Translations under genes and position numbers: made by a program | NCBI RefSeq assembly: GCF_002243045.1 | Contig: NZ_MBKP01000003.1 | Coordinates: 1 to 64,000, forward strand | Direction: 5' to 3' | Origin: Methanolobus psychrotolerans | Lineage (GTDB): Archaea; Halobacteriota; Methanosarcinia; Methanosarcinales; Methanosarcinaceae | Length of the DNA: 64,000 bases | In this document: in pieces, positions 14,568 through 31,900 of the stretch | How positions within the stretch are numbered: position 1 is the first letter of the stretch | Layout: the number at the start of each line of letters is the position of its first letter | The notes under the pieces: generated by a model | What the model was told of the DNA's origin: nothing | What the model saw: only the letters and a program-made list of their open reading frames with translations | The model's database searches: none

Positions 14568-14582
14568 CTATCACAGAATATC

Positions 14583-15317: not shown

Positions 15318-15721
15318 CCAAGTAACTTACTAAGTTTGTTTTCAACTTCTTCCACCGCAGACCAGTAATCATTATTCTTACTGTCTATTTTCTTGCTTAA
15401 AGAATAATATATCTTTTTACCTTTCCTGTCCCTTTCAATCCATCCAGCCCTATAAAGCTCGTTAAGGTATTTGTTTTCAATAGAGCGATGCCTTCCTGTA
15501 ATCTCACTTACCTCATCTGCGGTACAGGAGTTCAGTTTAGAAACCGCAAACAAAGATTTGCGGATAGAATCAGGAACTGTGAGAAAAACAGCCATTTTAT
15601 CATTGACGTGAGGAGAATTACGGGATTCAAGATCAGCCAGACGTAACTCCAGTGATGTCAAACGCTCGTTTATATCACTCAGATATGTTAAAATTCTATT
15701 GTTATTATGCAGGTCAGACAT
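15314..15721 (-). CDS. Winged-helix protein coupled to MinD-type ATPase
   Basis: A 135-residue protein. The start is ATG at 15721 (MSDLHNNNRILTYLSDINE). An N-terminal coiled-coil (about residues 8-40, SDINERLTSLELRLADLE) precedes a winged-helix domain (about 55-110, SCTADEVSEITGRHRSIENK then the wing GWIERDRKGKKIYYSLSKK) and a C-terminal helix. It may be a DNA-binding regulator or a protein-interaction HTH. A similar HTH closes the 540-residue coiled-coil protein at 18003. The divergent promoter region is shared with the KaiC-like gene. Confidence 0.65.
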   Translation of the reverse strand: MSDLHNNNRILTYLSDINERLTSLELRLADLESRNSPHVNDKMAVFLTVPDSIRKSLFAVSKLNSCTADEVSEITGRHRSIENKYLNELYRAGWIERDRKGKKIYYSLSKKIDSKNNDYWSAVEEVENKLSKLLG

Positions 15722-15891
15722 GATTATCAACGTCGAGAAAAGTGATTTGGATGTTATATCCAATTTAATAGGTCTGATAATATATAAAGTTGCTCAAATA
15801 CGTTTGAAAAGATATTAATAATGATTTTTGATCTGTTTAGATTTACGACAAACTTATAAAATATCCCAACATATGAGAAGTAGTGGACCGC

Positions 15892-16602
15892 ATGAGAAAA
15901 CCATTCTATGTCACAAAAATGGATATTCTTCTCCATGGGGGACTTATAAAACCATCATCTGTTCTTATCGCAGGCTCATGTGGAACAGGTAAGACGACCC
16001 TATGCTTGCAGTCATTGTTCAATGCCGCAAAACTTGGAGAAAAATGCGTATATGTTTCAATGCTTTCCGAATCAAGGGACAAGATAATCCGGGATTTGTC
16101 TTCCTTCTCATTCTATAATGAAAAACTGATAGACGAAAAAATAAAGATAGTTTCCATCAATTCAGACGTCGTGGCAAAAGGAGATTTTGCCATATTCGAA
16201 TATATGAATGAGAATGTACTTAAAGACAAACCATCCCGGGTTGTTATTGATACCATTAATATCTTTGAGGACATTGAAAGTACATTTGATGAAAGACCAT
16301 TCCATAAGTTCGAATTAAGATATTTTATCCAGAATCTGTTCCAGGAATTTGATGAGAATGACATACTACTCATGGCAACCGGAGAAATACCTGCTTCAAA
16401 TATACAATCCAGTATATGGTCATATATCTTCGATACAGTAATTGTACTTGGCACCGATATTGAAGAACAAATACCCCATAGGTATCTTGAGATAATCAAA
16501 GAACGAGGGAGTGATTTTACAATGGGGAAACACAAATTCACTATCACAGATGATGGATTCGTTTTTTTAAACTGCCAGAGGAACCCGGTACCTCCAGGAT
16601 AA
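15892..16602 (+). CDS. KaiC-like RecA-family ATPase
   Basis: A 236-residue single-domain KaiC/RecA-family ATPase. Walker A is GSCGTGKTT near residues 28-36, Walker B is the SRVVIDTINIF strand, and DILLMATGE is the following sensor strand. Its size matches ArlH/FlaH, the KaiC-like archaellum protein, but it lacks the archaellum operon around it. A TATA-like ACTTATAAAATA at 15849-15860 puts transcription start close to the gene, so it may be leaderless; GTG at 15883 is the alternative start. It is the only plus-strand ATPase in the block and is divergent from the winged-helix gene. Confidence 0.72.
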   Translation: MRKPFYVTKMDILLHGGLIKPSSVLIAGSCGTGKTTLCLQSLFNAAKLGEKCVYVSMLSESRDKIIRDLSSFSFYNEKLIDEKIKIVSINSDVVAKGDFAIFEYMNENVLKDKPSRVVIDTINIFEDIESTFDERPFHKFELRYFIQNLFQEFDENDILLMATGEIPASNIQSSIWSYIFDTVIVLGTDIEEQIPHRYLEIIKERGSDFTMGKHKFTITDDGFVFLNCQRNPVPPG

Positions 16603-16612
16603 CGTATTCAGA

Positions 16613-17194
16613 TCAAAGATGAAGATCCAGAGCTTTGAGTTCACGCTGGCTGTGATTTTTAATTATATTATTAAGTCTCATACGCACATTCTTTATTCCA
16701 TCTTCACTCGTAAAATGAGAAAGGACATCAGTGAGCTGGTCTATCATGAACTGATAATCACGCTCTGTCCCCGAATCCCTCAGTTTTTGCATTGCACCTT
16801 CAGCTATTTGTGAAGTCCACTCGTCATTTTTATAGTAGATCTTATCATCAACTTCAAGCTTCTTTCTTGCAACATCGTTATTGACCCTGGTAAAAATAAG
16901 TTCCACAGTATGCGGATCGCCCACGAATTCATTCATGAATTGCATAATATCCATTACAACTTCAAAATAAGGAATTTCAGGGTTCTCACAATCCTTGAAC
17001 ATCTGCATTAATTCAAGTCGTATATTCCTTTCTGCAGGCTTGAGGAGATAACTTGTAATATCATCTATTACAGCAGCACAACTCTCAACACCCATATTAG
17101 CCGACAGTTCATAAGTATTGCCTGACAATGCATTGTATCTACCATAATATTTCAATAAATTCTTACGCAATCGCTGCATATCTAAATTTGCCAA
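16613..17194 (-). CDS. Hypothetical helical protein
   Basis: A 193-residue, all-helical, soluble protein of no recognised family. It is the last gene of the minus-strand operon that begins at 23388. The TTG at 17194 has GGTGATG at a good distance; ATG at 17179 is an alternative. The composition (many Arg, Asp, Met; MQMFKDCENPEIPYFEVVMD; DQLTDVLSHFTSEDG) suggests an interaction scaffold. It ends 10 bases from the convergent KaiC-like gene. Confidence 0.65.
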   Translation of the reverse strand: MANLDMQRLRKNLLKYYGRYNALSGNTYELSANMGVESCAAVIDDITSYLLKPAERNIRLELMQMFKDCENPEIPYFEVVMDIMQFMNEFVGDPHTVELIFTRVNNDVARKKLEVDDKIYYKNDEWTSQIAEGAMQKLRDSGTERDYQFMIDQLTDVLSHFTSEDGIKNVRMRLNNIIKNHSQRELKALDLHL

Positions 17195-17222
17195 GACATC
17201 ACCTGAATCTTTTTATCATTTA

Positions 17223-17984
17223 TTAAATTTCAAATCCCTTAAGAAATGAATCCATTTCGTCCATGAGTTTATTATCCAGAAGCTCCCTTGAATTTTCAAA
17301 AAGCTGCTGGAAATCTCTGAGCTCTTCCTTTGATATGGACTTACCCATATTGTATTTAAACTTCAGTGCCTCATATCTTCCTATAAGCTCAGGCATGACC
17401 ATTCGCGGATAACTGCCAGCCATGACTTTTAATGTATCCTTAGCCCGAGGATATGGAAGTATCAGGTAATCCTTGTATCTGGGAGAAAGGCCATTGTTAT
17501 TTGGATTTAACCGTTTGAATTTCAGCTTATCTTTAAAGAACCTGGCTGCTCCCGGGTTGTCAGGCAACGTAATAACATTAGTTTCTAAATTTTTGACAGC
17601 AATCGCAAATAACAAACGTCCAATGCCTACATGACGGTGTGCCGGATGGATCTCTATGCTCCTGAGAAGATGAACAGAATAGTTCACAATATTCGTTTTG
17701 CCCCTGTAGGTCTTCTCTGTTTCATCGGATATTTTTTCAAATCGTGCAAAACCCAAAAGGTGCTCAGAACCCTGGATAGCAACAAAAAGTGAATGTCCCG
17801 AGCTTATTGAACTTTTCAGCAGGAAGTCATATGGCATACCAAACTTATTATGGAAATAATTGAAACCCACGTTATTGGCGTGTCCAATATCTATATTGAG
17901 CTGATCCACCGATGAGCCTGTTTCCAATAAACCATAGCTGACATGTCCAGCCATATGTAATATGCTCAAACCTTCAATCGACAT
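17223..17984 (-). CDS. GNAT acetyltransferase with helical tail
   Basis: A 253-residue protein with a GNAT fold: the acetyl-CoA loop is RSIEIHPAHRHVGIGRLLFA (motif A, R/Q-x-x-G-x-G/A type) at about residues 108-127, preceded by FVAIQGSEHLLGFARF and followed by the NPGAARFFKDKLKFKRL motif B. The C-terminal 60 residues (SKEELRDFQQLFENSRELL) form a probable helical extension not found in minimal GNATs. The gene lies 19 bases after the coiled-coil gene, in the CheF/KaiC operon. With a second GNAT and two deacetylases next door, protein acetylation is a reasonable inference. Confidence 0.75.
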   Translation of the reverse strand: MSIEGLSILHMAGHVSYGLLETGSSVDQLNIDIGHANNVGFNYFHNKFGMPYDFLLKSSISSGHSLFVAIQGSEHLLGFARFEKISDETEKTYRGKTNIVNYSVHLLRSIEIHPAHRHVGIGRLLFAIAVKNLETNVITLPDNPGAARFFKDKLKFKRLNPNNNGLSPRYKDYLILPYPRAKDTLKVMAGSYPRMVMPELIGRYEALKFKYNMGKSISKEELRDFQQLFENSRELLDNKLMDEMDSFLKGFEI

Positions 17985-18002
17985 TCTAGATCATCTAATA
18001 TT

Positions 18003-19625
18003 TCAAACATTAACTGGATCTGCAACAGAGTAGAAAGTATATCTTCCTTTTTTAGTTGAACTAACGAGTTGTTCCTGTTCCAGATATGACATTACAAGGG
18101 AAAGTTTTTCAAAATCAATTGAAACTCCATTTTCATTGATCTGTTTCTCAAGCTGTTTAAGGGTCGCAGAACCAAGAATCAAGAGCTGCCCGGTAATGAC
18201 ATCTTCTATCGGGATATCTGAAAATCGCCTGGGTTTTTGCTCTTCTGTAACATTTAGATGATATGGTTCTTCCTGCACTACTGAAAGATCATAACCCGTT
18301 TCCATTATATCCCGAGAGTTGAACACATTCTCCTGAAGCTGCTGCTGTTGAGAGGTGAGTATATTTTCCTGAACTTGTTGCTGTATGGAAGCAAGCATAT
18401 TTTCCACACTGGCTTTGAAAGATTCCATCTCACCGGATATAGCTATTATATCCTCTCTGCTGGCTTTTGAACCAACCATTTCTTCGATCCTTGACAGATC
18501 AGGAGCCTCAGTAAACTCAGATACATGATTTTCTGCAAGGGTAGAATTCCGGAATTCGACCAGATTTTTGTTCAGCTTATTAATCGCTCTTGTATGCAGA
18601 TTAACAGCTTTTGCTATACTTTTCATCTGTTCCCTTATATCAATGAGTTCCTGTGATTTTGAAGTGGCATCCTCAAGCTGGTTGTTTTGCAGTTCAGCTA
18701 TAAAACTGACATTTTCTGTAATATTGGACAATTCATTCTGGAATACACTAATATCAGCAACTATCTTATCAATGGAATGCTCATGTAACACCACTTTTTT
18801 AATAGTGTATTCCCGGCTTCCTGTTTCAACAAATGAGCGGAAATCCTGTGAATTATAATTTGGAACATGCTGGAAAAGTATTTTGAACAATTCTATATAG
18901 GTCCCATGTATCTGCTTTACAGAAACTATTTTGGAAGATATGGCATCAGAGAGACCTCTTATTATGAAAGAATCGTTCTCAAATCTGAAAAAATCGACTC
19001 CTGCACTGAACTGGCGTACACTCTCCCTGGCCTCTTCCACCATTTCAGCAGAATCTCTGTCGCCATACACACCAAGCATGGCGTTATAAATATCATTCAA
19101 AGTCTTTGCATAAGTGATCTCAAGGACATCCGGCGGAACCTTTGTAGCATCCAGAGATTCGGCATTTATTGAATCTTCTGCCTGGACAACACGTTTCAGT
19201 CTCTTGGAAAATTGAGCAAAATCCTTTTTGAGCTGTTTTAACTCGGCCTCATCCGCCCTTGTGTGAAGATTATTTTCTATAGAAGATAATAAACTTCCGT
19301 TTGAATCCAGAACTTCATTCATCTTTGTCTGAAGCTCCGTGAACCTTTCCTCAAATGCAAATAACCGGGACTGAAGTTCATCATTGAGTGCTTCAGCTTC
19401 TTTTAACCTGGACAACACATCTTCATCTGTTTCCTGGAAAACAGATTCATGGGAAATATCAGAGGAAACTCCAAAGTCATTAGTATCAACCAGTCCATCC
19501 ACATCTGTGTTTAGAACGACATCATTAGGCATAATTGCATGATCGTCTGTTTTCATTGCTTCTTTGCCTCCATAGACATGGTCTCCTTGATCAGAGGGAT
19601 TTAAGACACATATTTCATCATTCAT
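18003..19625 (-). CDS. Large coiled-coil protein with C-terminal winged helix
   Basis: A 540-residue protein. An acidic disordered start (about 1-65) is followed by coiled-coils (about 68-150 and 275-350), a globular middle (about 165-260), a Gln-rich linker (SIQQQVQEN, TSQQQQLQEN around 400-425) and a winged-helix-like domain (about 455-538: TGQLLILGSATLKQLEKQIN, then the wing LVSSTKKGRYTFYSVAD). No signal peptide or TM. It lacks the ArlD/E motif, so it is not an obvious archaellum scaffold. A GGTGATC site precedes the ATG. It could be the structural hub of the block, by inference. Confidence 0.65.
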   Translation of the reverse strand: MNDEICVLNPSDQGDHVYGGKEAMKTDDHAIMPNDVVLNTDVDGLVDTNDFGVSSDISHESVFQETDEDVLSRLKEAEALNDELQSRLFAFEERFTELQTKMNEVLDSNGSLLSSIENNLHTRADEAELKQLKKDFAQFSKRLKRVVQAEDSINAESLDATKVPPDVLEITYAKTLNDIYNAMLGVYGDRDSAEMVEEARESVRQFSAGVDFFRFENDSFIIRGLSDAISSKIVSVKQIHGTYIELFKILFQHVPNYNSQDFRSFVETGSREYTIKKVVLHEHSIDKIVADISVFQNELSNITENVSFIAELQNNQLEDATSKSQELIDIREQMKSIAKAVNLHTRAINKLNKNLVEFRNSTLAENHVSEFTEAPDLSRIEEMVGSKASREDIIAISGEMESFKASVENMLASIQQQVQENILTSQQQQLQENVFNSRDIMETGYDLSVVQEEPYHLNVTEEQKPRRFSDIPIEDVITGQLLILGSATLKQLEKQINENGVSIDFEKLSLVMSYLEQEQLVSSTKKGRYTFYSVADPVNV

Positions 19626-19639
19626 AACAGATCACCACA

Positions 19640-20410
19640 TCATACGAAAGACTCAAGTTTGTGTTTTATATCCGGTATCCATTCAGCCTCACAGATATCT
19701 GCCACATAATCACCATGCAGAGGACGTATCTGATCCCTTATGATCATTTCAACAAGCAAAGGCCACAGGTCTTCGGTCATCCATTTTGGAGATGAGGCAA
19801 TCTCATTGAAAGCCATTGCAAGCACCTGTTCAACCTCTCCCCTGCCCATGACACCGGTGATCTTCTCTTTTATATCAGCAAGAAGTTCCATGTTCTTTTT
19901 GTACTCCGAAGACTGGGTGTACATTTCATTGAAAACTATTTTAGACAATATACGCAACTCATCAGCTACTTCCGGAGGATAGCTTGCTAACTGCTCTGCA
20001 GACATGGGACGCTGTTCAAAGATATGTTGTATCACATGTCTTGCAATGGTTATCTTATCCATGTTTGCTGACAGATCGACCTTTCCCGTGAAAAGGGAGA
20101 TTAAAAGCGCTCCACGACCAACCGAAGAGAAAATGACAGTACCGAAGTCATATTCGATGACAGATTCTTTAAGTCCCATTGCAAGCTGCTGGCTCACATG
20201 AAGCAGGTTATGGCTGATAAGGTTTGTAAGCTCAAATATTTTAGGGCCGATACTATCCGGTATGTAGGATGCATATATCCTTCCATCTGCACCTGCAAAC
20301 AAAAGCACATCCACATCACTGGATTGGTGTGTCCTTTTCAGCTGTGCGACCAGAGCAAACTTCAGAAGAGAAACATCCTCAAGGTCATCTTTTGTTTTTT
20401 TAATTGACAC
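19640..20410 (-). CDS. Roadblock/LC7-like protein
   Basis: Residues about 15-125 resemble a roadblock/LC7 domain: VDVLLFAGADGRIYASYIPD is the first hairpin and FGTVIFSSVGRGALLISLF the matching strands. Such proteins (MglB, for example) bind and regulate GTPases or form signalling dimers. The C-terminal half is helical (LADIKEKITGVMGRGEVEQV). The start is GTG at 20410, decided by an AGGTGG site 5 bases upstream; an earlier in-frame start at 20455 would overlap the KaiC-like gene. It lies between the KaiC-like ATPase and the coiled-coil protein. No MglA-type GTPase is present in the window. Confidence 0.6.
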   Translation of the reverse strand: MSIKKTKDDLEDVSLLKFALVAQLKRTHQSSDVDVLLFAGADGRIYASYIPDSIGPKIFELTNLISHNLLHVSQQLAMGLKESVIEYDFGTVIFSSVGRGALLISLFTGKVDLSANMDKITIARHVIQHIFEQRPMSAEQLASYPPEVADELRILSKIVFNEMYTQSSEYKKNMELLADIKEKITGVMGRGEVEQVLAMAFNEIASSPKWMTEDLWPLLVEMIIRDQIRPLHGDYVADICEAEWIPDIKHKLESFV

Positions 20411-20429
20411 GTCAACCCACCTCATGCAG

Positions 20430-21500
20430 TCACTGGACAAATTCTTCCAGTTCACTTAAATTGTCGATCTCTATAAGGCCTTCATCATCTGAAGATGAAA
20501 CATCATCCAGCTCAATATTGTCAACATTCATGGTTACACCGGAGATATCACTGACATCCAATGGAACTTCCGAAGAGAGAGTAGCTTCTTTTCGTCTTAC
20601 AAGATCCTCTTTTGTCAATGCATCATTAAGACCCTGGGATTCGAAGAATATCTGGAGTGTTTCCTTCGGAGAGAATGGATATGACCAGTTCTCCTTAACG
20701 TAAACAAGGCGATCAAGCATCTTTTCGTTGGCTCCAAGATCTGCGGCCGTTCTTATAGCTTTGTCAAAGATATCATCATATTTGCGTACATCTTCAGCAG
20801 AGACCAACGGAGTGGTCCTTACAACAACGCCGACACCACGCACAAATATGTACGGATATACCTCTTCACCATGCCTTGTGGCACGCATCTTTATGATTTC
20901 AAGAGCCCTGTTAAAAGCACCTCCAATTGGCCTGTAAGTAAGGTGGACAGCACCATCTGACATGTAAATTGGAATCAGCACATCCTCACCAACAGTCTCC
21001 CCGGGTGTAGAATGTTCTTCAGTTGTAATAAGGACAGGACCAAGCTGTTTTAAAGTATAGAACAGCTTTGTGATAATCTCACGCTGTTCCTGCTTGTCCT
21101 GTACAGCCCATATAAGGGGAGTTAAAGGATCAATTATAACGCGGGTCTTTACTGCATAGTTTTTATTAGCTTCCACAAGCGCTGGGAGTTGCTCATCTAC
21201 AAGCTTTACAAAATCCCTACCTTTTGAATGGAAAAAGAACAGCTCCTTGCCATAGTACTCATCAAGATTAAAACCAAGCATCTTTGCTTCACGCATGATC
21301 TGTTCCGGAGGCTCTTCCATACTTATGTAGAGTCCATTTTCACCATGCTCAAGACCATAATTCAGGTATTGCATTGCAAAAGTAGATTTTCCGGTACCAC
21401 TTGAACCAACAACCAGAAGAGTCGTATTATCACGTACTCCGCCTTCAATGACCCTGTCAAGACCTGCGATCCCGGTTGGTATTCTCCTCTCACTACTCAT
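20430..21500 (-). CDS. KaiC-domain ATPase with acidic tail
   Basis: A 356-residue single KaiC domain. It opens RIPTGIAGLDRVIEGG, the family signature, with Walker A GSSGTGKST (residues 32-40), the KaiC segment GLYISMEEPPEQIMREA and Walker B in TRVIIDPLTPLIW. The domain ends near residue 240; an unstructured, highly acidic tail (about 300-356) follows. KaiC-type ATPases switch partners with ATP state and often sit in signalling operons. It overlaps the Sm-like gene upstream by 4 bases (ATGA) and has a strong GGAGGTG site, so the two are coupled. Size and tail exclude ArlH. Confidence 0.85.
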   Translation of the reverse strand: MSSERRIPTGIAGLDRVIEGGVRDNTTLLVVGSSGTGKSTFAMQYLNYGLEHGENGLYISMEEPPEQIMREAKMLGFNLDEYYGKELFFFHSKGRDFVKLVDEQLPALVEANKNYAVKTRVIIDPLTPLIWAVQDKQEQREIITKLFYTLKQLGPVLITTEEHSTPGETVGEDVLIPIYMSDGAVHLTYRPIGGAFNRALEIIKMRATRHGEEVYPYIFVRGVGVVVRTTPLVSAEDVRKYDDIFDKAIRTAADLGANEKMLDRLVYVKENWSYPFSPKETLQIFFESQGLNDALTKEDLVRRKEATLSSEVPLDVSDISGVTMNVDNIELDDVSSSDDEGLIEIDNLSELEEFVQ

Positions 21501-21847
21501 CTCAGCACCTCCAGAAATCCGAGGTCCTTTATTTTATGATCTGAATCTGGAAGCAGGGAGCCATCCTCGATCTTAAGTATAAGAGATTCATTACTGTCAA
21601 ATGGAAAACTCTTTTCTATATATACCGACTCAATAGCATGCCCTATTATCAACATACTATCGCTAACATCAACCCATCCGGTATCATTCTTTTTAACAAC
21701 ATTTTTCAAAAGGACATTGTTGCTCTTTTGGTCTATCCTTACACACTCGCCCCTGTAGTGTGAGTTATCCGTGATCACCCTGACAAATTCACCTATGAAC
21801 TCTCCCAGGTGATTATTTAATGAAACTGATCTGTAACCTGACATCAT
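21497..21847 (-). CDS. Small Sm/LSm-like barrel protein
   Basis: A 116-residue protein whose first 75 residues have the strand order of an Sm fold: GEFVRVITDNSHYRGECVRI (Sm1-like, with the Gly after the aromatic) and DSMLIIGHAIESVYIEK (Sm2-like, with I-x-G). The RNA-binding Asn of true Sm proteins is not clear, so a protein-protein role is as likely. The alternative is another small beta-barrel such as PilZ. It is translationally coupled to the KaiC ATPase downstream and follows the V4R gene by 4 bases. Confidence 0.5.
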   Translation of the reverse strand: MMSGYRSVSLNNHLGEFIGEFVRVITDNSHYRGECVRIDQKSNNVLLKNVVKKNDTGWVDVSDSMLIIGHAIESVYIEKSFPFDSNESLILKIEDGSLLPDSDHKIKDLGFLEVLR

Positions 21848-21851
21848 ATCC

Positions 21852-22766
21852 CTACTGATTTTTTTTCATTTTTGCAAGAAGTTCGGCAAAACTATCGGTC
21901 TTTTTGGCTTCTTCCTGCAGTTTTTTAGTCTCCTCGGAGACAACAGGTGCAGGAGGTACAACTCCTACGTTTTGCTCTGACTGTACTGTTTTGGCCATTG
22001 CGCCAAAAGCACCGCCAAAAGTATTGTGCGTGGCAGCAATTGAAGAAAGTTCTTCTTTAAGTTTCCACGGAGGATCGAATTTCTTTTCATCGACTTTTAT
22101 TGTACTTGCAAATTGCATGTAAGCAGTGCCTATTTCTGATAAACGGCCGTTTTCCAGTAATTTGTATACGGTCAATGCCCGTACCCTGTCCTTTAATTCA
22201 TTATCATCGACCGGTGGCCTGACACCTGAGAGTATCATCTTATCATACTCATCCAGCATCACCTGGTATGCGGATATAGGCTGGAGGTCCACTTTGAATT
22301 TGCACGCAGAATTGCCATTTTTGATACATTCGATCTCTTCAACTGAACACTCAAGTTCAAGATCCTCTCTAAAGAACCTGTGAAGGGCATCTGTTGTAGC
22401 TACACACACTTTCTGGTTGTTGAGTGCCGGATAGAAATTACACACAGGGTTGTTGGGAACTGCAAAAATGTAATGCATTGGAGCATATGAGATCAATTGC
22501 ATGTTACCGAGACCGATTTCCCGGAACATTTCCATATGGAAACGATAAAGTGAAGTGGCTCTTATCGCCTCAATTGTACTTGCCTTGAGGAATTCCCTGG
22601 TCCCACTCCATGGAACTTTTACTTTAGGGAACCTTTCGCTGATGTTCTGCTGTAATTTGAGCAGTGCACCAAAAGCGCCCATAGACTGTGCAAAACTACC
22701 ATCTGATATCGAAGGAGGACCTCCGGCAGAGGCTGTCATGAAAGGAGGAAGGCCAGGATCTGCCAT
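21852..22766 (-). CDS. V4R-domain sensor protein
   Basis: This 304-residue protein has a V4R (4-vinyl-reductase) domain at about residues 60-165. The hallmark is the C-terminal Cys pair region ELECSVEEIECIKNGNSACK; additional Cys residues (CNFYPALNNQKVC) could bind a metal or small molecule. V4R domains sense ligands such as hydrocarbons or tetrapyrroles. The N-terminal 35 residues are Gly/Pro/Ser-rich and the C-terminal 70 residues are low-complexity with a coiled end. A GGAGG site precedes the ATG. It is the second gene of the CheF-like operon and probably its input sensor, by inference. Confidence 0.72.
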   Translation of the reverse strand: MADPGLPPFMTASAGGPPSISDGSFAQSMGAFGALLKLQQNISERFPKVKVPWSGTREFLKASTIEAIRATSLYRFHMEMFREIGLGNMQLISYAPMHYIFAVPNNPVCNFYPALNNQKVCVATTDALHRFFREDLELECSVEEIECIKNGNSACKFKVDLQPISAYQVMLDEYDKMILSGVRPPVDDNELKDRVRALTVYKLLENGRLSEIGTAYMQFASTIKVDEKKFDPPWKLKEELSSIAATHNTFGGAFGAMAKTVQSEQNVGVVPPAPVVSEETKKLQEEAKKTDSFAELLAKMKKNQ

Positions 22767-22800
22767 TTACAATGCCTCCTTTTTGGTGATCGGATTCATC

Positions 22801-23388
22801 TCACATCATCTCCCTTATTTGCTTTTGACCCTGTTCTGTAAGTGTTCCTGAAGTGTCACACAAATTCTGCTCCCTCAGACTCTTAAAACTGTTAGTCAGT
22901 GTGTCGTTATCAACACCTATGAAGAAAACCAGCTTCTGTAAATCATTTACACCTGTGTAAAGCATGTAAAGAAGCTTTTTATCAACATCAGTAAGCGATT
23001 GTTTTTTCGGAGGTGTGCCACACATTGGCTGAAGATAGGTCTTTAACGTATTGATAACGGCTTCATTGCCTGCCAATAATGCAGTGGCTGAAGCTGTTGC
23101 TCCTTCTACGACAGATGATGGCTGAAGATAATCTATCATGAGTACATGTGAAGTACCGATAGTCCTCTGTGCTTTCATCCGGATAGGATCAGTGACCTCT
23201 CTGCCTACCATTGTAATGCTTTTTAGAGGTATTGTTATCCATCCTCCTCCTTCGGAGAACCACAGGTTCAAGTTGGTAAGATATAGAACACCCTTTTCCC
23301 AATTATCGGAATACAGGGAATTACCCATCATCACTGCTTTATAAATATAAGTTAAATCTACTTTTGCGATACCCTGCTCTTGAGCCAT
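22801..23388 (-). CDS. CheF-like archaellum adaptor protein
   Basis: A 195-residue protein that fits the archaeal CheF architecture. The N-terminal PH-like half has NWEKGVLYLTNLNLWF followed by ITIPLKSITMVGREV; the C-terminal half is a winged helix (LTDVDKKLLYMLYTGVNDLQ, then IGVDNDTLTNSFKSL). In haloarchaea CheF links the chemotaxis response regulator to the archaellum switch. It is the first gene of the operon running to 16613; the 214-base AT-rich gap upstream (23404-23617) is its likely promoter. The start at 23388 (MAQEQGIAKVDL) is preferred to 23403, with GGGG upstream. Confidence 0.65.
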   Translation of the reverse strand: MAQEQGIAKVDLTYIYKAVMMGNSLYSDNWEKGVLYLTNLNLWFSEGGGWITIPLKSITMVGREVTDPIRMKAQRTIGTSHVLMIDYLQPSSVVEGATASATALLAGNEAVINTLKTYLQPMCGTPPKKQSLTDVDKKLLYMLYTGVNDLQKLVFFIGVDNDTLTNSFKSLREQNLCDTSGTLTEQGQKQIREMM

Positions 23389-23617
23389 TTGGAAAGACCC
23401 CATACTAATAAATTATATATCTAGTATTATAATTATAGTTAATATTGTATTGACTATATTAATACTCTTCTGTTGAACAATAAAAATAACATAATTTTGT
23501 TTTTTAAAAATATATAAATATGGCTTTCAAATAAAAACAGTTTCTAGATCAAACTTAGAAAGTACGTATTGAAAACAATTAATTGGAATGAAGAATAAAG
23601 AAATATCCTCTGATTTC

Positions 23618-24496
23618 TTATGTGAATGGCTTTTTAAGGGGAAGGAAATACCGTTCAATATGGCAGTTTGCACAAATAAAAGCAGTACCTTTCTTTTTAC
23701 CTATGACTTGATATTTATATACTATAGAATGTCCGCATTTGCAGGGAGACATCATTTTTTGCTCCCCGACAAACTTACCATCAAATACCACAGGACCCTT
23801 TGGGTCAGCAGCCTCTTTATTCTGAGATAGAACCGGAAAATCATTTTTATCTTCGGCAGCAACAGTAGTATCAATAACAACAGATTCAGTTAATGTTGGT
23901 GTCCTAGTACACTTATTCATAGCCTCAATACCTGATTCCTTCGGGAATATCTTCATCCTGCATGATCTGATGTTTTCTTCAAGTAAAGAAATGCCTTCAA
24001 AAGATAGCAATTCCTTCTTATTATCTTCCAATATGAGATAACCGGGATAATTACTGAGATTAACCGGAGAATTTACAGGCGGTTCTACAAAATTGAGAGA
24101 TTCAAAAAACATCTTTGCAGTCTTGTTCACAGGCTTTGTTATTATGTGACCAAGAAGTATGCGGGATATAAGGAAAAACATATTTTTTCCCATACCCCTC
24201 CTTGCAAGCTGCGGAGATACCTCAATACCACGCAGCACATACACAGGTTTTCCATCAACTGAAGAACAACTCCATTTTTCATTCATGGACCATCCGACAA
24301 CAGTATTACCTGATATTGCCAGCACTAATTCCACCGTAGGTCTTTTAAGCCAGCTGTTAAAATTTGAAAAATAATCTGCCATACCAAGATATTTTCTGAA
24401 ATAGCTGAACTCACCTATCTTCAACTTGTCCAGCTCAAAAGCATGCTCAAGTTTACAAAAAGATATACCATCTTCAGTTCTTGCAAGTTCAAACAT
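23618..24496 (-). CDS. GNAT acetyltransferase with zinc-ribbon tail
   Basis: A 292-residue protein with an N-terminal GNAT domain (about 1-160): VVGWSMNEKWSCSSVDGKPV, then the acetyl-CoA loop RGIEVSPQLARRGMGKNMFF, then the NKTAKMFFESLNFVEPP motif B. A linker of about 70 residues leads to a C-terminal zinc ribbon with CKC and CANC pairs (about residues 252-285). The zinc ribbon suggests a protein or nucleic-acid target. It directly follows the two deacetylase genes in the same operon (15-base gap), so acetylation and deacetylation enzymes are co-expressed. It differs from the GNAT at 17223 in its tail but shares the loop style. Confidence 0.75.
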   Translation of the reverse strand: MFELARTEDGISFCKLEHAFELDKLKIGEFSYFRKYLGMADYFSNFNSWLKRPTVELVLAISGNTVVGWSMNEKWSCSSVDGKPVYVLRGIEVSPQLARRGMGKNMFFLISRILLGHIITKPVNKTAKMFFESLNFVEPPVNSPVNLSNYPGYLILEDNKKELLSFEGISLLEENIRSCRMKIFPKESGIEAMNKCTRTPTLTESVVIDTTVAAEDKNDFPVLSQNKEAADPKGPVVFDGKFVGEQKMMSPCKCGHSIVYKYQVIGKKKGTAFICANCHIERYFLPLKKPFT

Positions 24497-24511
24497 TTGA
24501 TCAACTACCTG

Positions 24512-25588
24512 TTAAGTTCGGGTCCACAAGCCCCAGTATGGTTCCAGCCTCATTTTCAGAAGGGACAAACTATTGTTGAAGTCTTTTCTGGTTTTGGCAT
24601 GCCTTGAAGCAAGCAGGTCTATCTGGTCTACTTCATCCTTAATGTTGCTTTCGCCTGTCAATGCACGCAGTACAACGGACGTAAGCAGACCAAGATCTTC
24701 GTGATAACCACCTTCCAGCAAAGTTACAATGTTCCATTTACTTGCAAGTTTAAATATAATTCGATAGTAACCATCGATTGTTAGGTTCAGTTTGGTCAGA
24801 GACTCCTTATAGTAAGCATCAAAACCACATTCAAGGATAACTATCTGGGGATCGAACTTTGTAAGTACTTTTTCTACCACTTCATCATAGAATATACCAT
24901 ATTCAGGATTACCGGATTCCGGAGGCATTTCCATATTTATACAATAGCCAAGTGCAGGCCTTGCACCAATATCCCGGATAAAACCCTTGTACGGATAAAG
25001 AGTGGACTGGTCCTGGTGGACAGATATGCAAAGGACGCTTGGATCAGTCTCAAATACAGCATATGTCCCATCAGAAGCATGAGCATCGATATTTAAGATC
25101 GCAATTCGCTCAAAGCCGTGTACTTCCTGGAGATACCTGGCAAGTATGCCAGAGTTATTGAAAAGACAAAATCCACTGGAAGCATCGGGTCCTGCATGAT
25201 GCCCAGGAGGACGTATCAGGGCAAAAGAATGTTTGCACTTACCCGTGGCAACAAGAATTCCTGCGTTCAGTACACACCCCACCGCCTGCAAGAGGACTTC
25301 ATAAGAAGAAGGACATACATATACATCCTTACCAGGACTTGATCGGGGGTCTTTTACACAGGACTTTATAAATTTAATATACTTAACCGTGTGAACACGC
25401 AGTATATCCCTTACAGAAGCTGGCTCTGATGCATAAATATGATAATGAATGCCAGTTACAAGATCACTGTTCGCAAGGTATTCAAGTATATTCCTTATAC
25501 GGGATGGGTTTTCAGGACTTGGAAAACCATTAAGAAAAGAGTCATGCAAGTAATGATTCTCATTAAAGGTTATTCCAACAGGGATCAT
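24512..25588 (-). CDS. Histone deacetylase-family enzyme
   Basis: A 358-residue zinc deacetylase of the class II HDAC/AcuC/acetylpolyamine amidohydrolase superfamily. The catalytic set is complete: the His pair H130-H131 in RPPGHHAG, zinc ligands D168 and H170 in NIDAHASDGT and D257 in ECGFDAYY, and the catalytic Tyr295 in EGGYHED. It should hydrolyse acetyl-lysine or a related acetylamide in the cytosol. Its ATG overlaps the stop of the preceding HDAC gene (ATGA), so the two deacetylases are coupled and may form a heteromer. A GNAT gene follows. No acetoin-utilisation genes are near, which argues for a protein target. Confidence 0.88.
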   Translation of the reverse strand: MIPVGITFNENHYLHDSFLNGFPSPENPSRIRNILEYLANSDLVTGIHYHIYASEPASVRDILRVHTVKYIKFIKSCVKDPRSSPGKDVYVCPSSYEVLLQAVGCVLNAGILVATGKCKHSFALIRPPGHHAGPDASSGFCLFNNSGILARYLQEVHGFERIAILNIDAHASDGTYAVFETDPSVLCISVHQDQSTLYPYKGFIRDIGARPALGYCINMEMPPESGNPEYGIFYDEVVEKVLTKFDPQIVILECGFDAYYKESLTKLNLTIDGYYRIIFKLASKWNIVTLLEGGYHEDLGLLTSVVLRALTGESNIKDEVDQIDLLASRHAKTRKDFNNSLSLLKMRLEPYWGLWTRT

Positions 25589-27543
25589 CAGGACACCTGC
25601 AAGGAAAGTATAGGACTATTCTTTTTGGACTCAGCTATCTTTTTCTGAGTATCAGCAAATATCTGCTTTTGCAGATTCATTTTATAACTGGAAATTCCCT
25701 GGCGGTCACTGACCGGATTGGGCTTCCCGTGAAGAGAGCTAAGCACACTATGGCATAGCTGACCATTGAAATCATGATAACCACCTTCCATCAGAAAAAC
25801 CATTGGCCCATGGAATACAGAACGTATCTTTGAAGTCATCTGGTGATAACCTTCTGAATCCAGGGTCAGCCCGATATTCTTTTCCTGGTAATATGCATCA
25901 AAACCGCAGCTGAATATTATGAATTCCGGAGCAAAATGACCAACCAGTGGAACAACTACCTCGTCAAACGCCAGCATGTATTCATCATTACCTGCACCCT
26001 CTGGCATCTCAACATTCATAGTATACCCTTTGCCTGCGTTTTCCCCTATCTGTGTACTAAAGCCTTTACGGGGATAGAAACCATGCGGGTCCCTGTGGAG
26101 GGATATGAACATGACAGTCGGATCTTCATAAAATATCTCCATTGTACCATCACCAGCATGAGCATCCCAGTCAATTATCAGTACCCTTCCTACATTCCTG
26201 CGACGCTGCAGATGTCTTGCAAGAACTGCTGCATTGTTGAACAGACAAAAGCCTCCGTACTTCTGGGAACTGGCATGATGACCCGGAGGACGTGCAAGCA
26301 CAAAAGCATGAGAGAATTTCTGTTCAATCAGCAGATCACCTGCTTTTATCGCAGCACCTGCAGCCATCTTTGCAATGTCATAGGAACTTGGCGTCATATA
26401 GGTACTGTCGCCTAAAAACCCTCCTCCGGCATATGCATAGGAGCGGACAAAAGAAATATATGATCCATCATGGACCCTTAAAAGATCAGCTTCATCCGCC
26501 ATTCCGAAGTCATCTATCAATGTACATGTACCGTCATTGAAAACCTTACTCTTTTCCAGATACCACATAGCTTTAATAAGACGTTCCGGTTTTTCATGTG
26601 TATTAATGGACAGTGATGCAGCATCATGCTTTATATGATCCTTGCTATAAAGGAAGGCAATATTTACAGGTGAACTGGGAATGTTTTCTTTTATAAACGT
26701 TGAAACTTTCTGTTTCCCCATATCCGAAATGGCAGAAGATGATGAACTGGAGAGAGTACTCCGGACTTGCAGAGGTTTATCAATTTTTTCAGGTATTGTT
26801 TCTTTAGTAGCTCCTTTGTGAGATGACACCAGAGAGGAATGGGCTGTTTTGAATTTATCAATCCCACTAAATTGCTTCTTTGGTTCTGATTTTACTGGTT
26901 CCTGTGTTTTCATTACAGCAGTACTTGGATCAACCACAACATCATTAGATGATGTTCCTTTCAACTCCGGAAGAGTTCCCTGTTCATTTAAGATTATTTT
27001 ATCCTTTGCCGGCAAAGGAAACTCATGTACATTACTATTACTTGGATCTACAGAAAAGAAATCTGAGTTTTTAGGAATCTTTTTGAGAATCGCAGATACG
27101 GCTTCTGAATAACGCATATCTGCTTTGATTTCAGCAGGGTCCCCCATATCCTCTATCTCAATTTCAACTGATTGATATGCAACATCATCAAAAACTCCGG
27201 AAAGGACATCCGGAACTATAGTAGTAACATTATTACCGCTGGGTTCATCGACATCTTCAGGACCGTCTTGTTTTTTATCTGTATGGTCAATGAAATCTTT
27301 TTTGGAAATATCGGCGATTTCCACTTCTTGATTAGTTTTTGTTTCCTGAACTTGCATACTCTGTTTTTCAATGATACCTGACTGTACCAACTCAATGAGG
27401 GAATCCTTTTCTGATAGATCATCAGTAGTGCCGGTAGATTGCTTTCCATCAAGATAAGATGAAAATGCTTCATTCAGTTTTTTCATAATATCCGGAGATA
27501 TCTGCTTTGAAGTATCTCCTGCTCTGTTATTATCTGATGACAT
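25588..27543 (-). CDS. HDAC-family enzyme with long disordered N-terminus
   Basis: A 651-residue protein. The first 285 residues are low-complexity and acidic with Lys, Ser and Thr clusters and no recognised domain. The rest is a complete histone-deacetylase domain: H422-H423 in RPPGHHAS, zinc ligands D460 and H462 in DWDAHAGDG, D549 in SCGFDAYY, and Tyr589 in EGGYHDF (numbering from the ATG at 27543). The start is set by GGGTGG 5 bases upstream; a TTG at 27558 is weaker. The N-terminal tail is unusual for this family and may bind partners or be its own acetylation substrate. It overlaps the next deacetylase. Confidence 0.85.
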   Translation of the reverse strand: MSSDNNRAGDTSKQISPDIMKKLNEAFSSYLDGKQSTGTTDDLSEKDSLIELVQSGIIEKQSMQVQETKTNQEVEIADISKKDFIDHTDKKQDGPEDVDEPSGNNVTTIVPDVLSGVFDDVAYQSVEIEIEDMGDPAEIKADMRYSEAVSAILKKIPKNSDFFSVDPSNSNVHEFPLPAKDKIILNEQGTLPELKGTSSNDVVVDPSTAVMKTQEPVKSEPKKQFSGIDKFKTAHSSLVSSHKGATKETIPEKIDKPLQVRSTLSSSSSSAISDMGKQKVSTFIKENIPSSPVNIAFLYSKDHIKHDAASLSINTHEKPERLIKAMWYLEKSKVFNDGTCTLIDDFGMADEADLLRVHDGSYISFVRSYAYAGGGFLGDSTYMTPSSYDIAKMAAGAAIKAGDLLIEQKFSHAFVLARPPGHHASSQKYGGFCLFNNAAVLARHLQRRRNVGRVLIIDWDAHAGDGTMEIFYEDPTVMFISLHRDPHGFYPRKGFSTQIGENAGKGYTMNVEMPEGAGNDEYMLAFDEVVVPLVGHFAPEFIIFSCGFDAYYQEKNIGLTLDSEGYHQMTSKIRSVFHGPMVFLMEGGYHDFNGQLCHSVLSSLHGKPNPVSDRQGISSYKMNLQKQIFADTQKKIAESKKNSPILSLQVS

Positions 27544-27561
27544 CAATACCACCCGCAAATA

Positions 27562-28512
27562 TCATTGAACCTGCAGCCACACAGGATCAAGTACGCCTAT
27601 GTATTTTGAAACACCATATTCAAATATCACAGTTGGCTCCTCTATAGACGCCCAGCCTGTCAATTTAGGTGTCAGCACCCAGGTTCTTTTTACAGTTTCA
27701 CCTGGAGCAATGTTGTCAAAGAAGAGATTTATATTCTCAACTTCTAAGGAATTTGCAAATTTGGCCTTGACTGCAAAATTATTATACGGTTGCTGTGTGA
27801 AATTTTTTACCCATACATCCACACCTGTGACCTTACCGGCAGTTATCTGTTGGGCCGGGACGAACCTTATGTATTGCGCTATGGCTTCTTTTTGCAAAGG
27901 AACTGCACCTGAAACATCTATTGTCCGATTATTATTTTTTTTCTTAGCTTTGTCTTTCTTATCCAGATAAAAACCTGTACCAAGCATCACAAAAGCAAAC
28001 ACAGATATAATCGGTGCATTATCAACAATTACATCAATTGAAGTGCTTTCCACTTCAATGTTGACCAACTCAGCATTTTCAAATGACAACTCTGAATTGA
28101 ATGAGACCCTTGTTATGATCCAGCCTAGCTCACTGTCCTGCAACCTGAAATAAATAGGTACAACAGTTGTAGCTTTTACATTTCCGGAAAGGTCAAGTGT
28201 TGCTATGGGACATTCAACATTTACTATAGCAAGATTATCGACTATCTCATGGGAAACAATATTAACTTCGGTGATACTTCCCGGCCCTATGCCTTTATTC
28301 TTAAATATCATTGTGATGCTTGCAGGCGCAAGGAAGTCCTTACCTGTATACAGAGAAAAAGCCAAACCAGGATCGTCTTCGTTGACAGCAGTCAAAAAAT
28401 CCATAACCGTTGATTGGACTGATTCTTCTGGGGATTTGGCAATACAACCACTATGAAAGATAGCTGCCGCAAGGACAAGGAAACAAATGATGTAGGATGA
28501 CCTGTGTTTCAT
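27562..28512 (-). CDS. Membrane-anchored lipoprotein, CARDB-like domain
   Basis: A 316-residue surface protein. A signal peptide ends in a lipobox-like FHSGC (residue 23), so it may be lipid-anchored. The N-terminal domain (about 30-150) resembles small DUF4878/NTF2-like folds (SVQSTVMDFLTAVNEDDPGL). A hydrophobic helix near 165-185 (DNAPIISVFAFVMLGTGFYL) crosses the membrane, a basic stretch follows, and a C-terminal Ig-like CARDB-type domain (VTGVDVWVKNFTQQPYNNFA) ends the protein. The topology, with domains on both sides, is unclear. It follows the 28551 gene in the archaellin operon. Confidence 0.65.
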   Translation of the reverse strand: MKHRSSYIICFLVLAAAIFHSGCIAKSPEESVQSTVMDFLTAVNEDDPGLAFSLYTGKDFLAPASITMIFKNKGIGPGSITEVNIVSHEIVDNLAIVNVECPIATLDLSGNVKATTVVPIYFRLQDSELGWIITRVSFNSELSFENAELVNIEVESTSIDVIVDNAPIISVFAFVMLGTGFYLDKKDKAKKKNNNRTIDVSGAVPLQKEAIAQYIRFVPAQQITAGKVTGVDVWVKNFTQQPYNNFAVKAKFANSLEVENINLFFDNIAPGETVKRTWVLTPKLTGWASIEEPTVIFEYGVSKYIGVLDPVWLQVQ

Positions 28513-28550
28513 ATGAGCACCGTAAATCGATAAGTGATTAGAGAATATTT

Positions 28551-29291
28551 TTATTGAGATTTATTTATTTTATTCGTTCTAATTATATATAATGCTATTG
28601 ACGCAAGTATGACCTCAATTGTAACCAGAAGGGGCAGGAAGAAGCTGCTTTTATAAATGGGCTTTTTCTGCATTGTGACATATGCGGCGTATTCAAATGC
28701 AGGCCTGTCCTCCATCATAAAGGAACGTATGCCACTTACACCCGTGATCACTACACGCCCATCCTGTACAGACTGTGAGACATCATCAAGTCCATCATAT
28801 GAGACTAATTCCATGCCCGAGGGAAGAATGAACCTCATGTTGTCGATGAGCGGATGACCGAGTACCCATACATTATGCGCTCCATTGGAAATTGTTGAAC
28901 TCATATCATATAGTACTATTATTGTCACATTCAACTGAGAAGTATCCACCAGACCTTCTGCACCTTCAAACTGAAGCTCAATAGAATCGATTTCCAACGG
29001 TAGTGAGTTATTATCTATTATAATATATTCTAATAACTGTGCCTTTCGGTTTAATAGATAGCTTTCCCTGAATACTTCGACCTCTGAAGTATTGACATCT
29101 CCACTATCGTCTGTATCCAGATCCCCTCTGAAATCCAGCGCATCTTCAAGGGTATATGTTTCATGTATCGTGAATGTTATAGATCTCTCATGCATTTCGA
29201 TGTCATTAGTAAATGAAACATCTGCTGAAGCCTTTGCAGCAAAACAGCAGAATAATAAAATAAAAAGTATAAGAATAGTTCTTTTGCTCAT
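28551..29291 (-). CDS. Secreted, C-terminally anchored surface protein
   Basis: A 246-residue protein with an N-terminal signal peptide (residues about 5-23), an extracellular beta-rich domain of about 180 residues and a C-terminal TM helix (SSFFLPLLVTIEVILASIAL). The loop DTDDSGDVNTSEVE resembles a dockerin/EF-hand calcium site. The start at 29291 is decided by GAGGG before the ATG; an ATG at 29303 is alternative. It is the third gene of the operon opened by two archaellins, so a cell-surface role linked to the archaellum is plausible. No family is recognised. Confidence 0.65.
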   Translation of the reverse strand: MSKRTILILFILLFCCFAAKASADVSFTNDIEMHERSITFTIHETYTLEDALDFRGDLDTDDSGDVNTSEVEVFRESYLLNRKAQLLEYIIIDNNSLPLEIDSIELQFEGAEGLVDTSQLNVTIIVLYDMSSTISNGAHNVWVLGHPLIDNMRFILPSGMELVSYDGLDDVSQSVQDGRVVITGVSGIRSFMMEDRPAFEYAAYVTMQKKPIYKSSFFLPLLVTIEVILASIALYIIRTNKINKSQ

Positions 29292-29324
29292 ATCATCCCT
29301 CATAAAATATAAAAACAGTCCCCC

Positions 29325-30113
29325 TCATGGATAGAGCTGGACTGCTTCTCTTGTACCATACGACGACGGAGTCAAAAATGTTGCCATTGTCATTGCACCT
29401 GATTCTGGTGTAAGTACTATTGTTACACTTGTACGTGGCCCGATGTTAAGACTAGAATCCTGCTGACCACCTGCGGTGTTTGTTTCGCCTATAGTAGCAA
29501 ATGAAAGATCACTGCCCGAGACAGTGGACACATAGACGATCGCAAGGTCCCCTGTGTTCATAATAGGATTGCCCTGGGTGAATGACATGTCCTCGTCCCT
29601 GATCTTCTGTACTGTGAAGAAATACTTTGCATTGTGACCGGGTGTTGTCTGTGTGCCTTTAAGCAAAGCCTCCAGATTAGCACTTGCGGCAGTGGCATCT
29701 GAAGAGAAATTGGTCATCTTGTAATCATGGGTCCGGTCGTTGTTCGCGTAAAGCAGGTCGTTGGTGTTAGAGCCATCTGAGACGGTAACTATCAATTGGT
29801 TAAGGTCTACAGGAGAACTCCCGACATTCAAACCAACCCGTATCTTCATCAGAGAGATATTGCCTGCCATATCAGTAACATTGTTCTTTGCCCGGATACC
29901 CTCTATATTCTTGACGACCAGGTTAGATGAAACTTCCTGGGTTGCCTGTTTACCGGTTGACTGGGCTTGTTGCTGGAGAATGCCGGATGTCTGTATAAGC
30001 ACAGAAGCGGCTACCGCAGCAATTAGCACCATGGCGATGAATATAATAAGAGTACCTATACCCACCTGAGCCCCAGTATCAGTGAACATTCTGATTTTTG
30101 TGTTTGTCTCCAT
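29325..30113 (-). CDS. Archaellin (FlaB/ArlB), second of pair A
   Basis: A 262-residue archaellin. The class III signal peptide is followed by the conserved helix [20 protein letters not shown]; cleavage is expected after the Ala of TGA, leaving QVG with Gly at +3. The C-terminal beta domain shows the archaellin pattern [20 protein letters not shown]. The ATG at 30113 is preferred because GGAG lies 9 bases upstream; an ATG at 30122 is too close. The N-terminus (METNTKIRMFTDTG) differs from the other three, which start MKAN, and may mark a minor archaellin. No terminator is seen before the surface-protein gene 34 bases downstream. Confidence 0.92.
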   Translation of the reverse strand: METNTKIRMFTDTGAQVGIGTLIIFIAMVLIAAVAASVLIQTSGILQQQAQSTGKQATQEVSSNLVVKNIEGIRAKNNVTDMAGNISLMKIRVGLNVGSSPVDLNQLIVTVSDGSNTNDLLYANNDRTHDYKMTNFSSDATAASANLEALLKGTQTTPGHNAKYFFTVQKIRDEDMSFTQGNPIMNTGDLAIVYVSTVSGSDLSFATIGETNTAGGQQDSSLNIGPRTSVTIVLTPESGAMTMATFLTPSSYGTREAVQLYP

Positions 30114-30137
30114 TGAAACCATCTCCGTGTAAATAAA

Positions 30138-30163
30138 ATGATGTGCAGTAATCTACACATCAT
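30138..30163 (-). promoter_or_regulatory. Hairpin between archaellins of pair A
   Basis: ATGATGTG (30138-30145) pairs perfectly with CACATCAT (30156-30163) over a 10-base loop, in the short gap between the stop of the first archaellin and the start of the second. It could protect the 3' end of the first message or reduce read-through. A matching arrangement with a different sequence exists at 33510-33532. Confidence 0.55.
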
Positions 30164-30171
30164 GAATTACA

Positions 30172-30930
30172 TCACGGATACAGCTGTACATTTTCCTTGA
30201 CGCCATATGATGAGGGAGTTACAAACTCAGCAACAGTGGCTGCACCAGATTCAGGTGTCAGCACAATGTTCACCAGAGTCCTTGGAACAAGTGACAGGTT
30301 TGAGGTTTGGAGATCTCCTGATGTTGACCCAATCTCGGTGAGGGCAGCGCCTGTGGAAGATGTTGTTGAGATGTATACCACAATAAGATCACCTGTGTTC
30401 ATCACGGGGTTACCCTGCGAAAAAGAAGAATCTTCATCACGGATTCTATCGACGGTATAGAATTTAGTAGGGTTGGTACTTTGAGTTAACAATGCTTCCA
30501 AATTATCTGCAGATTCATTACTACCTGAAAAACCAGTCATCGCCCCATATGATTTAGTGTTGCCTCCATAGACAAGATTATGTGCAATACTACCATCTGT
30601 TATTGATATAACTACCTGGTTCACGTCAACAGGAGAACTTCCTACGTTGAGAGCTACCTGCAGCTTGAGCAGGTCAATAGTAGATGACAGACTTGCGCCG
30701 GTTTTTGCACGTACGCCTTCTATATTCTTGATCATCAGGTTGGATGATACTTCCTGAGTTGACTGCTTACCGGTTGACTGGGCTTTCTGTTGCAGTATGC
30801 CGGATGTCTGAATGAGTACTGCTGCAGCAACTGCAGCAACGAGCACCATGGCGATGAATATGATAAGAGTACCTATACCCACCTGGGCCCTGGTATTTTT
30901 CTTTAAATTAAACGCTTTGTTTGCTTTCAT
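30172..30930 (-). CDS. Archaellin (FlaB/ArlB), first of pair A
   Basis: A 252-residue archaellin, promoter-proximal in operon A. The signal peptide [15 protein letters not shown] is followed by [20 protein letters not shown], with the expected prepilin-peptidase-like cut after Ala and Gly at +3. The body carries the [19 protein letters not shown] strand and the common C-terminus ending NVQLYP. An AGGAGG site lies before the ATG at 30930, which decides this start over an upstream in-frame extension. The product should assemble into the archaellum filament; the motor genes needed for it are outside the window. Confidence 0.95.
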   Translation of the reverse strand: MKANKAFNLKKNTRAQVGIGTLIIFIAMVLVAAVAAAVLIQTSGILQQKAQSTGKQSTQEVSSNLMIKNIEGVRAKTGASLSSTIDLLKLQVALNVGSSPVDVNQVVISITDGSIAHNLVYGGNTKSYGAMTGFSGSNESADNLEALLTQSTNPTKFYTVDRIRDEDSSFSQGNPVMNTGDLIVVYISTTSSTGAALTEIGSTSGDLQTSNLSLVPRTLVNIVLTPESGAATVAEFVTPSSYGVKENVQLYP

Positions 30931-31093: not shown

Positions 31094-31900
31094 ATGAGCG
31101 CAGGGTTACTGTTAAATGCAACTATCTGTTTTGCAATAACCATATCTTCATTTGCTTTTGCATGGGTACTTGCCCAAAGCGATTCGCAACACAACAACAA
31201 AAGTAGACCTGCGCTCTGGTCCCTTATAGCTTTATGGTCGCTTGTTGGCCTGACATATTTGCCTACAACAGTACGGATGATTGCAGCGTACATGGACAAC
31301 CAGCAACTGGACCTGATCATGTATTATATAGCTTCAGTGCCTTTCTCTTTCGTTGCCGTGCCATTGGTCTTTTTTATCCTGTATGTAATTATAGGAGACC
31401 AGAAGATCAGCAGTTATATCTCGTTACTTTTTGTCCTGTTTGGTGCGGCCTACCTGGCATTATTCTATTCCAGCGGAGTCATTGGCCCCACTATCACACC
31501 CCTTACTTCCCTTTTCACTATCAACAGCGATATCGCAATTAACATCTATCTGATAGGACTTTTTGTAATACCTACTGCAATGATAATAGGACTGCTTTTC
31601 CTTATCTTCCTCCAGCGTATGCCAAAGAGGCTGCGCTACAGGACCGCATTGCCCCTGGTAGCAATCTCATTTGTCTTTGATTTCATGCTTACAGACATGA
31701 TCACACTTGATGATACTATGCAGCTTGCAGCCAGGATATTTGTTCTCATTGGCACAGTACAGGCTTTCCTTGCATACTTCCCCCCAATGACCCTGCAGGA
31801 AAAACTCGGGATTAAAAAATATGAGTACATCCTCTGCGAAAAAGAGGAAGAAGAAGACTATGACGAGGACGGTGTAGAGGGGAGTGATATCAATGTCTGA
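31094..31900 (+). CDS. 7-TM protein divergent from archaellins, copy A
   Basis: A 268-residue membrane protein with seven predicted helices (about residues 5-27, 40-62, 75-100, 106-127, 148-173, 182-203 and 212-232) and a very acidic C-terminal tail (EKEEEEDYDEDG). The conserved patch QRMPKRLRYRTALPLVAISF lies between TM5 and TM6. No family is recognised; the layout recalls sensor-type 7-TM domains without a signalling output. It is a close paralogue of the gene at 34474, and both are divergent from an archaellin pair. It is translationally linked to the winged-helix-like gene downstream (overlap at 31893-31900). Confidence 0.75.
   Translation: MSAGLLLNATICFAITISSFAFAWVLAQSDSQHNNKSRPALWSLIALWSLVGLTYLPTTVRMIAAYMDNQQLDLIMYYIASVPFSFVAVPLVFFILYVIIGDQKISSYISLLFVLFGAAYLALFYSSGVIGPTITPLTSLFTINSDIAINIYLIGLFVIPTAMIIGLLFLIFLQRMPKRLRYRTALPLVAISFVFDFMLTDMITLDDTMQLAARIFVLIGTVQAFLAYFPPMTLQEKLGIKKYEYILCEKEEEEDYDEDGVEGSDINV

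Follow-up and report, generated by a model that had tools for sequence, protein, structure and literature searches.

The 64,000-nucleotide stretch of Methanolobus psychrotolerans considered here (NZ_MBKP01000003.1, positions 1–64,000; hereafter the window) carries, at positions 16613–30930, two archaellin genes and a set of genes for a KaiC-type ATPase, a roadblock-like protein, a relative of the taxis adaptor CheF, and predicted acetyltransferases and deacetylases. We describe this set as a KaiC hub that is conserved, specific to one lineage, linked to motility and equipped with acetylation enzymes of its own. All fifteen genes that a first-pass annotation, made from the sequence alone, had named in this part of the window were recovered at the positions it gave, on the minus strand and in two runs.

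The first run opens with archaellin 1 (30172–30930; PF01917, E = 1e-33) and archaellin 2 (29325–30122; PF01917, E = 2e-30) and continues with a predicted surface protein, surfA (28551–29303), and a predicted surface lipoprotein-like product, surfB (27562–28512), both recognized by synteny and travelling with the archaellins. Next comes HDACl (25588–27558), in which a class II HDAC domain (residues ~320–600; PF00850, 1.5e-84) is preceded by a long variable N-terminus, then a second class II HDAC, HDACs (24512–25588; PF00850, 2.8e-75), and finally GNATzn (23618–24496), a GNAT with a C-terminal CxCG...CxxC zinc ribbon (Pfam GNAT E = 0.019). The second run consists of a CheF-like protein with one PH-like domain and a winged-helix-like C-terminal domain (CTD) (22801–23388; CheF-arch Pfam 7.6e-4); a V4R-domain protein, a possible ligand sensor (21852–22766; PF02830 1.3e-6, under the cut-off); a small beta-barrel whose assignment as Sm-like is weak (21497–21847; Pfam 6e-4); KaiC1, a single-domain KaiC ATPase with an acidic tail and an intact Walker A motif, GSSGTGKS (20430–21500; PF06745 1.3e-45); the roadblock protein (19640–20410); CCwH, a coiled-coil protein with a C-terminal winged helix discerned by eye (18003–19625; 481–1018 aa in relatives); GNAT2 (17223–17984; PF00583 1.2e-5); and HEL, a conserved helical protein (16613–17194). 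Several junctions had been said to overlap by 4 bases; only that between the Sm-like gene and KaiC1 does so, while HDACl and HDACs overlap by 1 base, the remaining gaps measure 3–49 bp (3 bp between surfB and HDACl) and 229 bp lie between the runs. This close spacing supports two operons, the genes of which are presumably co-expressed.

No Pfam hit was obtained for the roadblock-like protein, the helical protein or the two surface proteins. For the first of these, whose start at 20410 is kept in relatives, the AlphaFold2 model (pLDDT 80; element order H-EE-H-EEE-H), a Foldseek match to roadblock/MglB (E = 2e-5) and a hidden Markov model (HMM) match (6e-4) point to a predicted roadblock/LC7 fold followed by C-terminal helices, and so bear out the original call.

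The set extends well beyond M. psychrotolerans. In a sampling of 238 genomes of the class Methanosarcinia the roadblock protein was found in 37, all within five genera of the Methanosarcinaceae, among them Methanolobus, Methanomethylovorans, Methanosalsum and Methanohalobium; it was not found in the other 34 genera searched. Inspection of gene order in 20 loci defined a conserved set of about 11 genes, usually adjoining archaellum genes. HDACl, GNATzn, V4R, KaiC1, roadblock and CCwH are present in 20 of 20 loci; HDACs, GNAT2, HEL (in 14 of 20), the CheF-like gene and Sm are each absent from some. Sequence conservation is highest for KaiC1, the roadblock protein and the CheF-like protein, and the order is kept across the five genera despite protein identities down to ~36%, which argues against chance association. 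An HDAC-family gene of Methanosarcina was considered as an equivalent of the module and rejected, since it has a different neighbourhood and no roadblock protein; it adjoins a HyuA-like gene (L055, L056), which suggests a different role.

Both HDACs are predicted class II Zn-dependent enzymes, with class II enzymes as their best solved matches and invariant catalytic residues (HH, DxH, D and Y in 38 of 38 sequences, 21 HDACl and 17 HDACs). GNAT2 has an invariant RxxGIG acetyl-CoA loop (R117, G120, I121, G122). GNATzn, the zinc-ribbon GNAT of the first reading, is its paralog (hhalign E = 2.6e-22) and has invariant ribbon cysteines; at the same loop one glycine is invariant and the other nearly so, while the first position varies and in the window's GNATzn is neither Q nor R. 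Acetylation is a plausible candidate for the regulating modification.

The CheF-like protein was likewise correctly related to CheF. It is 195 aa long, and its residues 16–191 align only with residues 93–258 of CheF (hhalign probability 96.8, against 0.1–0.2 for unrelated profile pairs; E = 2.6e-10), that is, with the second PH domain and the CTD, the first PH domain being missing. Its Pfam score is 19.7 bits against a cut-off of 25, and the CheF profile directly recovers orthologs of it from Methanohalobium (2.4e-13) and, within the Methanomethylovorans group, from one genome (4e-9). A profile search of the PDB returned CheF structures as the top two hits, both weak (7ovp, E = 0.05; 7od9, E = 0.75). 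Full-length CheF was found in none of the 37 roadblock-bearing genomes when searched with a Methanosarcina-type CheF profile, which a highly divergent CheF could escape; this profile was used because Pfam CheF alone missed a true CheF in genome G019.

Chemotaxis genes and module also coincide. ArlDE of this type is carried by 60 genomes: the module and a CheA resembling the one in the Methanosalsum genome G073 (see below) are both present in 38 and both absent from 22, with no mixed cases. The 38 include one genome (G047, 70% complete) with both HDACs and the CheF-like protein and no roadblock protein detected. A Fisher test of module against CheA type gives 7e-17, a value on which we do not rely, since on the PurA tree the match comes down to no more than three changes and is suggestive only. 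The CheA of module genomes scores higher against the che2 type of Methanosarcina than against the CheF-linked type. G109, a 73%-complete genome from a different genus, has CheF-like and V4R orthologs at a contig end (L187, contig C162) with no HDAC upstream, and neither a roadblock protein nor CheA was found in this genome.

Four genomes are particularly informative about how these parts belong together. In G073, a complete, single-contig Methanosalsum genome, arlDE-type genes, archaellins, module and che operon are contiguous, in the order trp, two arlDE-type genes, four archaellins, surfA/B, HDACl, GNATzn, CheF-like, V4R, Sm, KaiC1, roadblock, CCwH, HEL, MCP, cheW, cheY, cheB, cheA, cheC, cheR, cheC and cheD. 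Methanosalsum natronophilum (G071) has this island split in two: che, archaellins, surfA/B, arlCE, CheF-like and Sm share one contig, on which the CheF-like/Sm pair adjoins arlCE and not KaiC1, and HDACl, GNATzn, V4R, KaiC1, roadblock, CCwH and HEL lie together at the trp locus. Because HDACl and GNATzn here stay with V4R, KaiC1 and roadblock, the acetylation enzymes appear to go with the KaiC hub and not with the filament. In G054, nested among module-bearing Methanolobus on the PurA tree, a 161-kb contig lacks, in its interior, the block from HDACl through the neighbouring gene g13890, and a 129-bp remnant of the winged-helix gene wHTH15 left as a scar identifies the loss as derived. This genome retains archaellins, surfA/B and the arl core, so that the module is not required for keeping archaellum genes; for CheA it yielded no match, and for CheW a single weak one. 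Finally, the complete genome G064 has the module, che and archaellins and lacks the CheF-like protein, which is thus not indispensable to the set.

The archaellar motor and core taxis genes need not lie nearby. As first noted, arlC-J and cheA/Y do not occur in the window; in the same genome the motor genes are outside the cluster (arlCE-J on contig C39, L058) and cheA is on contig C51, and in Methanolobus a long distance separates the module from che and arl genes. Methanolobus also encodes, away from the arl core, a second ArlDE-domain protein of far greater size (722 aa in L059, at a contig end; 903 aa in L126).

We think it likely that the module controls taxis or archaellum output, and give about an even chance to the fuller statement that it is a signalling module specific to this lineage, controls taxis and the archaellum, is built on a KaiC-type ATPase and uses reversible acetylation. 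In the mechanism that we envisage, the che system of these genomes, having no full-length CheF, would pass phospho-CheY to the short CheF-like protein, the CTD of which corresponds to the CheY-binding end of CheF and may bind CheY in the same way. The CheF-like protein would couple to KaiC1, a roadblock scaffold, the V4R sensor and CCwH, and via these to the archaellar switch ArlCE. Acetyl-CoA-using GNATs and Zn-dependent HDACs might then set a slow, reversible lysine acetylation on a hub component (candidates are the CheF-like protein, KaiC1, roadblock, CheY or ArlCE), and the acetylation state would tune output to metabolic state. That the CheF adaptor has in this way been replaced by a CheF-like/KaiC/roadblock hub, set by its own GNAT/HDAC pairs and reading acetyl-CoA into archaellar switching, is a tentative proposal and on balance an unlikely one. 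The main reading draws on the gene order shared by five genera, the contiguity of arl and che in G073, the joint absence of module and CheA in G054, the module/CheA coincidence, the lack of full-length CheF, the CheF homology, the CheF-like/Sm pair beside arlCE in G071 and the invariant HDAC residues, as well as on precedent: the CTD of CheF binds phospho-CheY, with the PH domains believed to point towards ArlCDE (Altegoer 2022, PMC9126983), and CheY acetylation is known from chemotaxis in Escherichia coli, where it proceeds by acetyl-CoA synthetase and autoacetylation (reviewed in PMC8556138).

Several observations weigh against this reading. A related che region that also lacks CheF occurs in Methanosarcina, which does not have the module; on the PurA tree the co-occurrence with CheA reduces to 2–3 independent changes, and its significance does not survive correction for the tree; and the CheF-like protein, as noted, can be missing (G064). 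This protein is moreover nearer to a family of ~400-aa KaiC-partner proteins (hhalign E = 1.9e-23) than to CheF, for which reason we rejected its description as a plain CheF ortholog, and members of that family are present in genomes that lack CheA as well. The CheF-like protein has a poor fold model, and its Foldseek matches, mainly MarR-type winged helices, are uninformative (E > 0.01). G071, too, parts HDAC and GNAT from archaellins, che and the CheF-like protein. Some of these points would suit an alternative that we consider possible, if less than probable, in which a KaiC hub with acetylation governs how archaellin and surface genes are expressed, or has a different target such as cell polarity, instead of feeding the switch: the CheF-like protein would then be a KaiC adaptor, as its kinship to the double-domain KaiC partners and the winged-helix matches of its CTD model might indicate, and the archaellin linkage would be operonic or regulatory, in keeping with the 3 bp between surfB and HDACl and the parting of most of the module from the archaellins in G071. 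This alternative fits less well with the position of the CheF-like/Sm pair in G071, beside arlCE on the che/archaellin contig and away from KaiC1, and with the lack of both CheA and module in G054.

The ~400-aa proteins (L188, on contig C15 of G000; L189, L190, L192) have two CheF-like domains and are encoded beside a KaiC ATPase; a PAS/DUF835 protein stands next to them in L188, L190 and L192 and carries a receiver domain in the latter two. A recurrent theme of receiver, CheF-like protein and KaiC would fit both the CheF and the KaiC-partner homology.

It is improbable that the substrates of the HDACs and GNATs are small molecules, such as polyamines or N-acetylated metabolites, and that these enzymes stand functionally apart from the signalling genes. 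A glutamate at the gatekeeper position marks HDAC10-type polyamine deacetylases, and this position is N, D, H or T in HDACl and L in HDACs, never E; the closest solved chains of both are class II lysine deacetylases, HDAC6 first; and at least one HDAC and one GNAT occur in 20 of 20 loci. To be set against this are the HyuA-like neighbour of the Methanosarcina HDAC and the use of polyamines by some prokaryotic HDAC-fold enzymes (PMC8556138). Neutral co-location of unrelated operons held together by shared ancestry, which the few independent events and the distance of che and arl from the module in Methanolobus would allow, is very improbable given an order kept over five genera at identities down to ~36% and the loss of the block as a unit in G054, which is also without CheA.

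The idea of a reversible-acetylation module acting on the archaellum or surface machinery, put forward in the first-pass annotation, thus stands in part: the module is conserved and linked to motility by position and co-occurrence, with intact HDAC catalytic residues and a plausible GNAT active site, while the tie of the acetylation enzymes to the archaellum is loosened by G071, where they keep to the KaiC hub. It had been proposed that scattering of these genes without archaellins in relatives would speak against the idea; the usual linkage holds, and G071, with HDAC and GNAT off the archaellins, departs from it.

A 2017 survey by Makarova, Galperin and Koonin is said to describe archaeal KaiC-hub signalling modules, in which a KaiC ATPase is combined with sensor and adaptor domains. 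The module resembles these, in that KaiC1 is co-encoded in conserved order with V4R, roadblock and CheF-like proteins, the arrangement by which such hubs are reportedly recognized, but it adds two HDACs and two GNATs and differs in sitting at archaellin or archaellin plus che loci. We found no description of it in the literature searched, which did not reach that survey. Compared with CheF itself (PF04283, the adaptor between phospho-CheY and ArlCDE), the CheF-like protein shares two domains and differs in its place within a KaiC/acetylation operon. Module genomes resemble the canonical Che–CheF–archaellum pathway in having MCP, CheA, CheW, CheY, CheC and the arl motor in one genome, and differ from it in that full-length CheF was not found in them. 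Unlike an archaellum operon, the cluster in the window is without arlC-J; two arlDE-type genes are adjacent in G073. If our proposal holds, acetylation would be a second input on taxis output, as in E. coli, for which the review does not name a dedicated GNAT/HDAC set at a motility locus (PMC8556138). How the CheF-less che2 regions of Methanosarcina act on the flagellum was left open by Schlesner (2009, PMC2666748), and the module offers a CheF-related candidate for that question in five genera. The module may link sensing and acetyl-CoA supply to swimming in these cells. Should the hub be the target of the acetylation enzymes, archaeal swimming would be under the control of a dedicated circuit of reversible acetylation that draws on the central metabolite acetyl-CoA.

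On its downstream side the module has optional neighbours: KaiC2 (15883–16602, plus strand; PF06745 1.4e-31), the winged-helix protein wHTH15 (15314–15763, minus strand) and a ParA/MinD-like ATPase (14583–15317, minus strand; PF13614 3.4e-18). Together with g13890 (13890–16602 in all) they flank it in Methanolobus and in one locus of the Methanomethylovorans group, did not turn up in the loci examined from Methanosalsum and Methanohalobium, and are gone with the module in G054, apart from the wHTH15 remnant. On the other side, divergent from the archaellins, are two copies of a membrane protein and a small gene of winged-helix-like type (31094–32255 and 34474–35280), which stay with the archaellins in G073, G071 and G054 (one copy). 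Further along the window, at 55691–59736, are adjoining aconitase-like and citrate synthase-like genes, named by eye from their translations.

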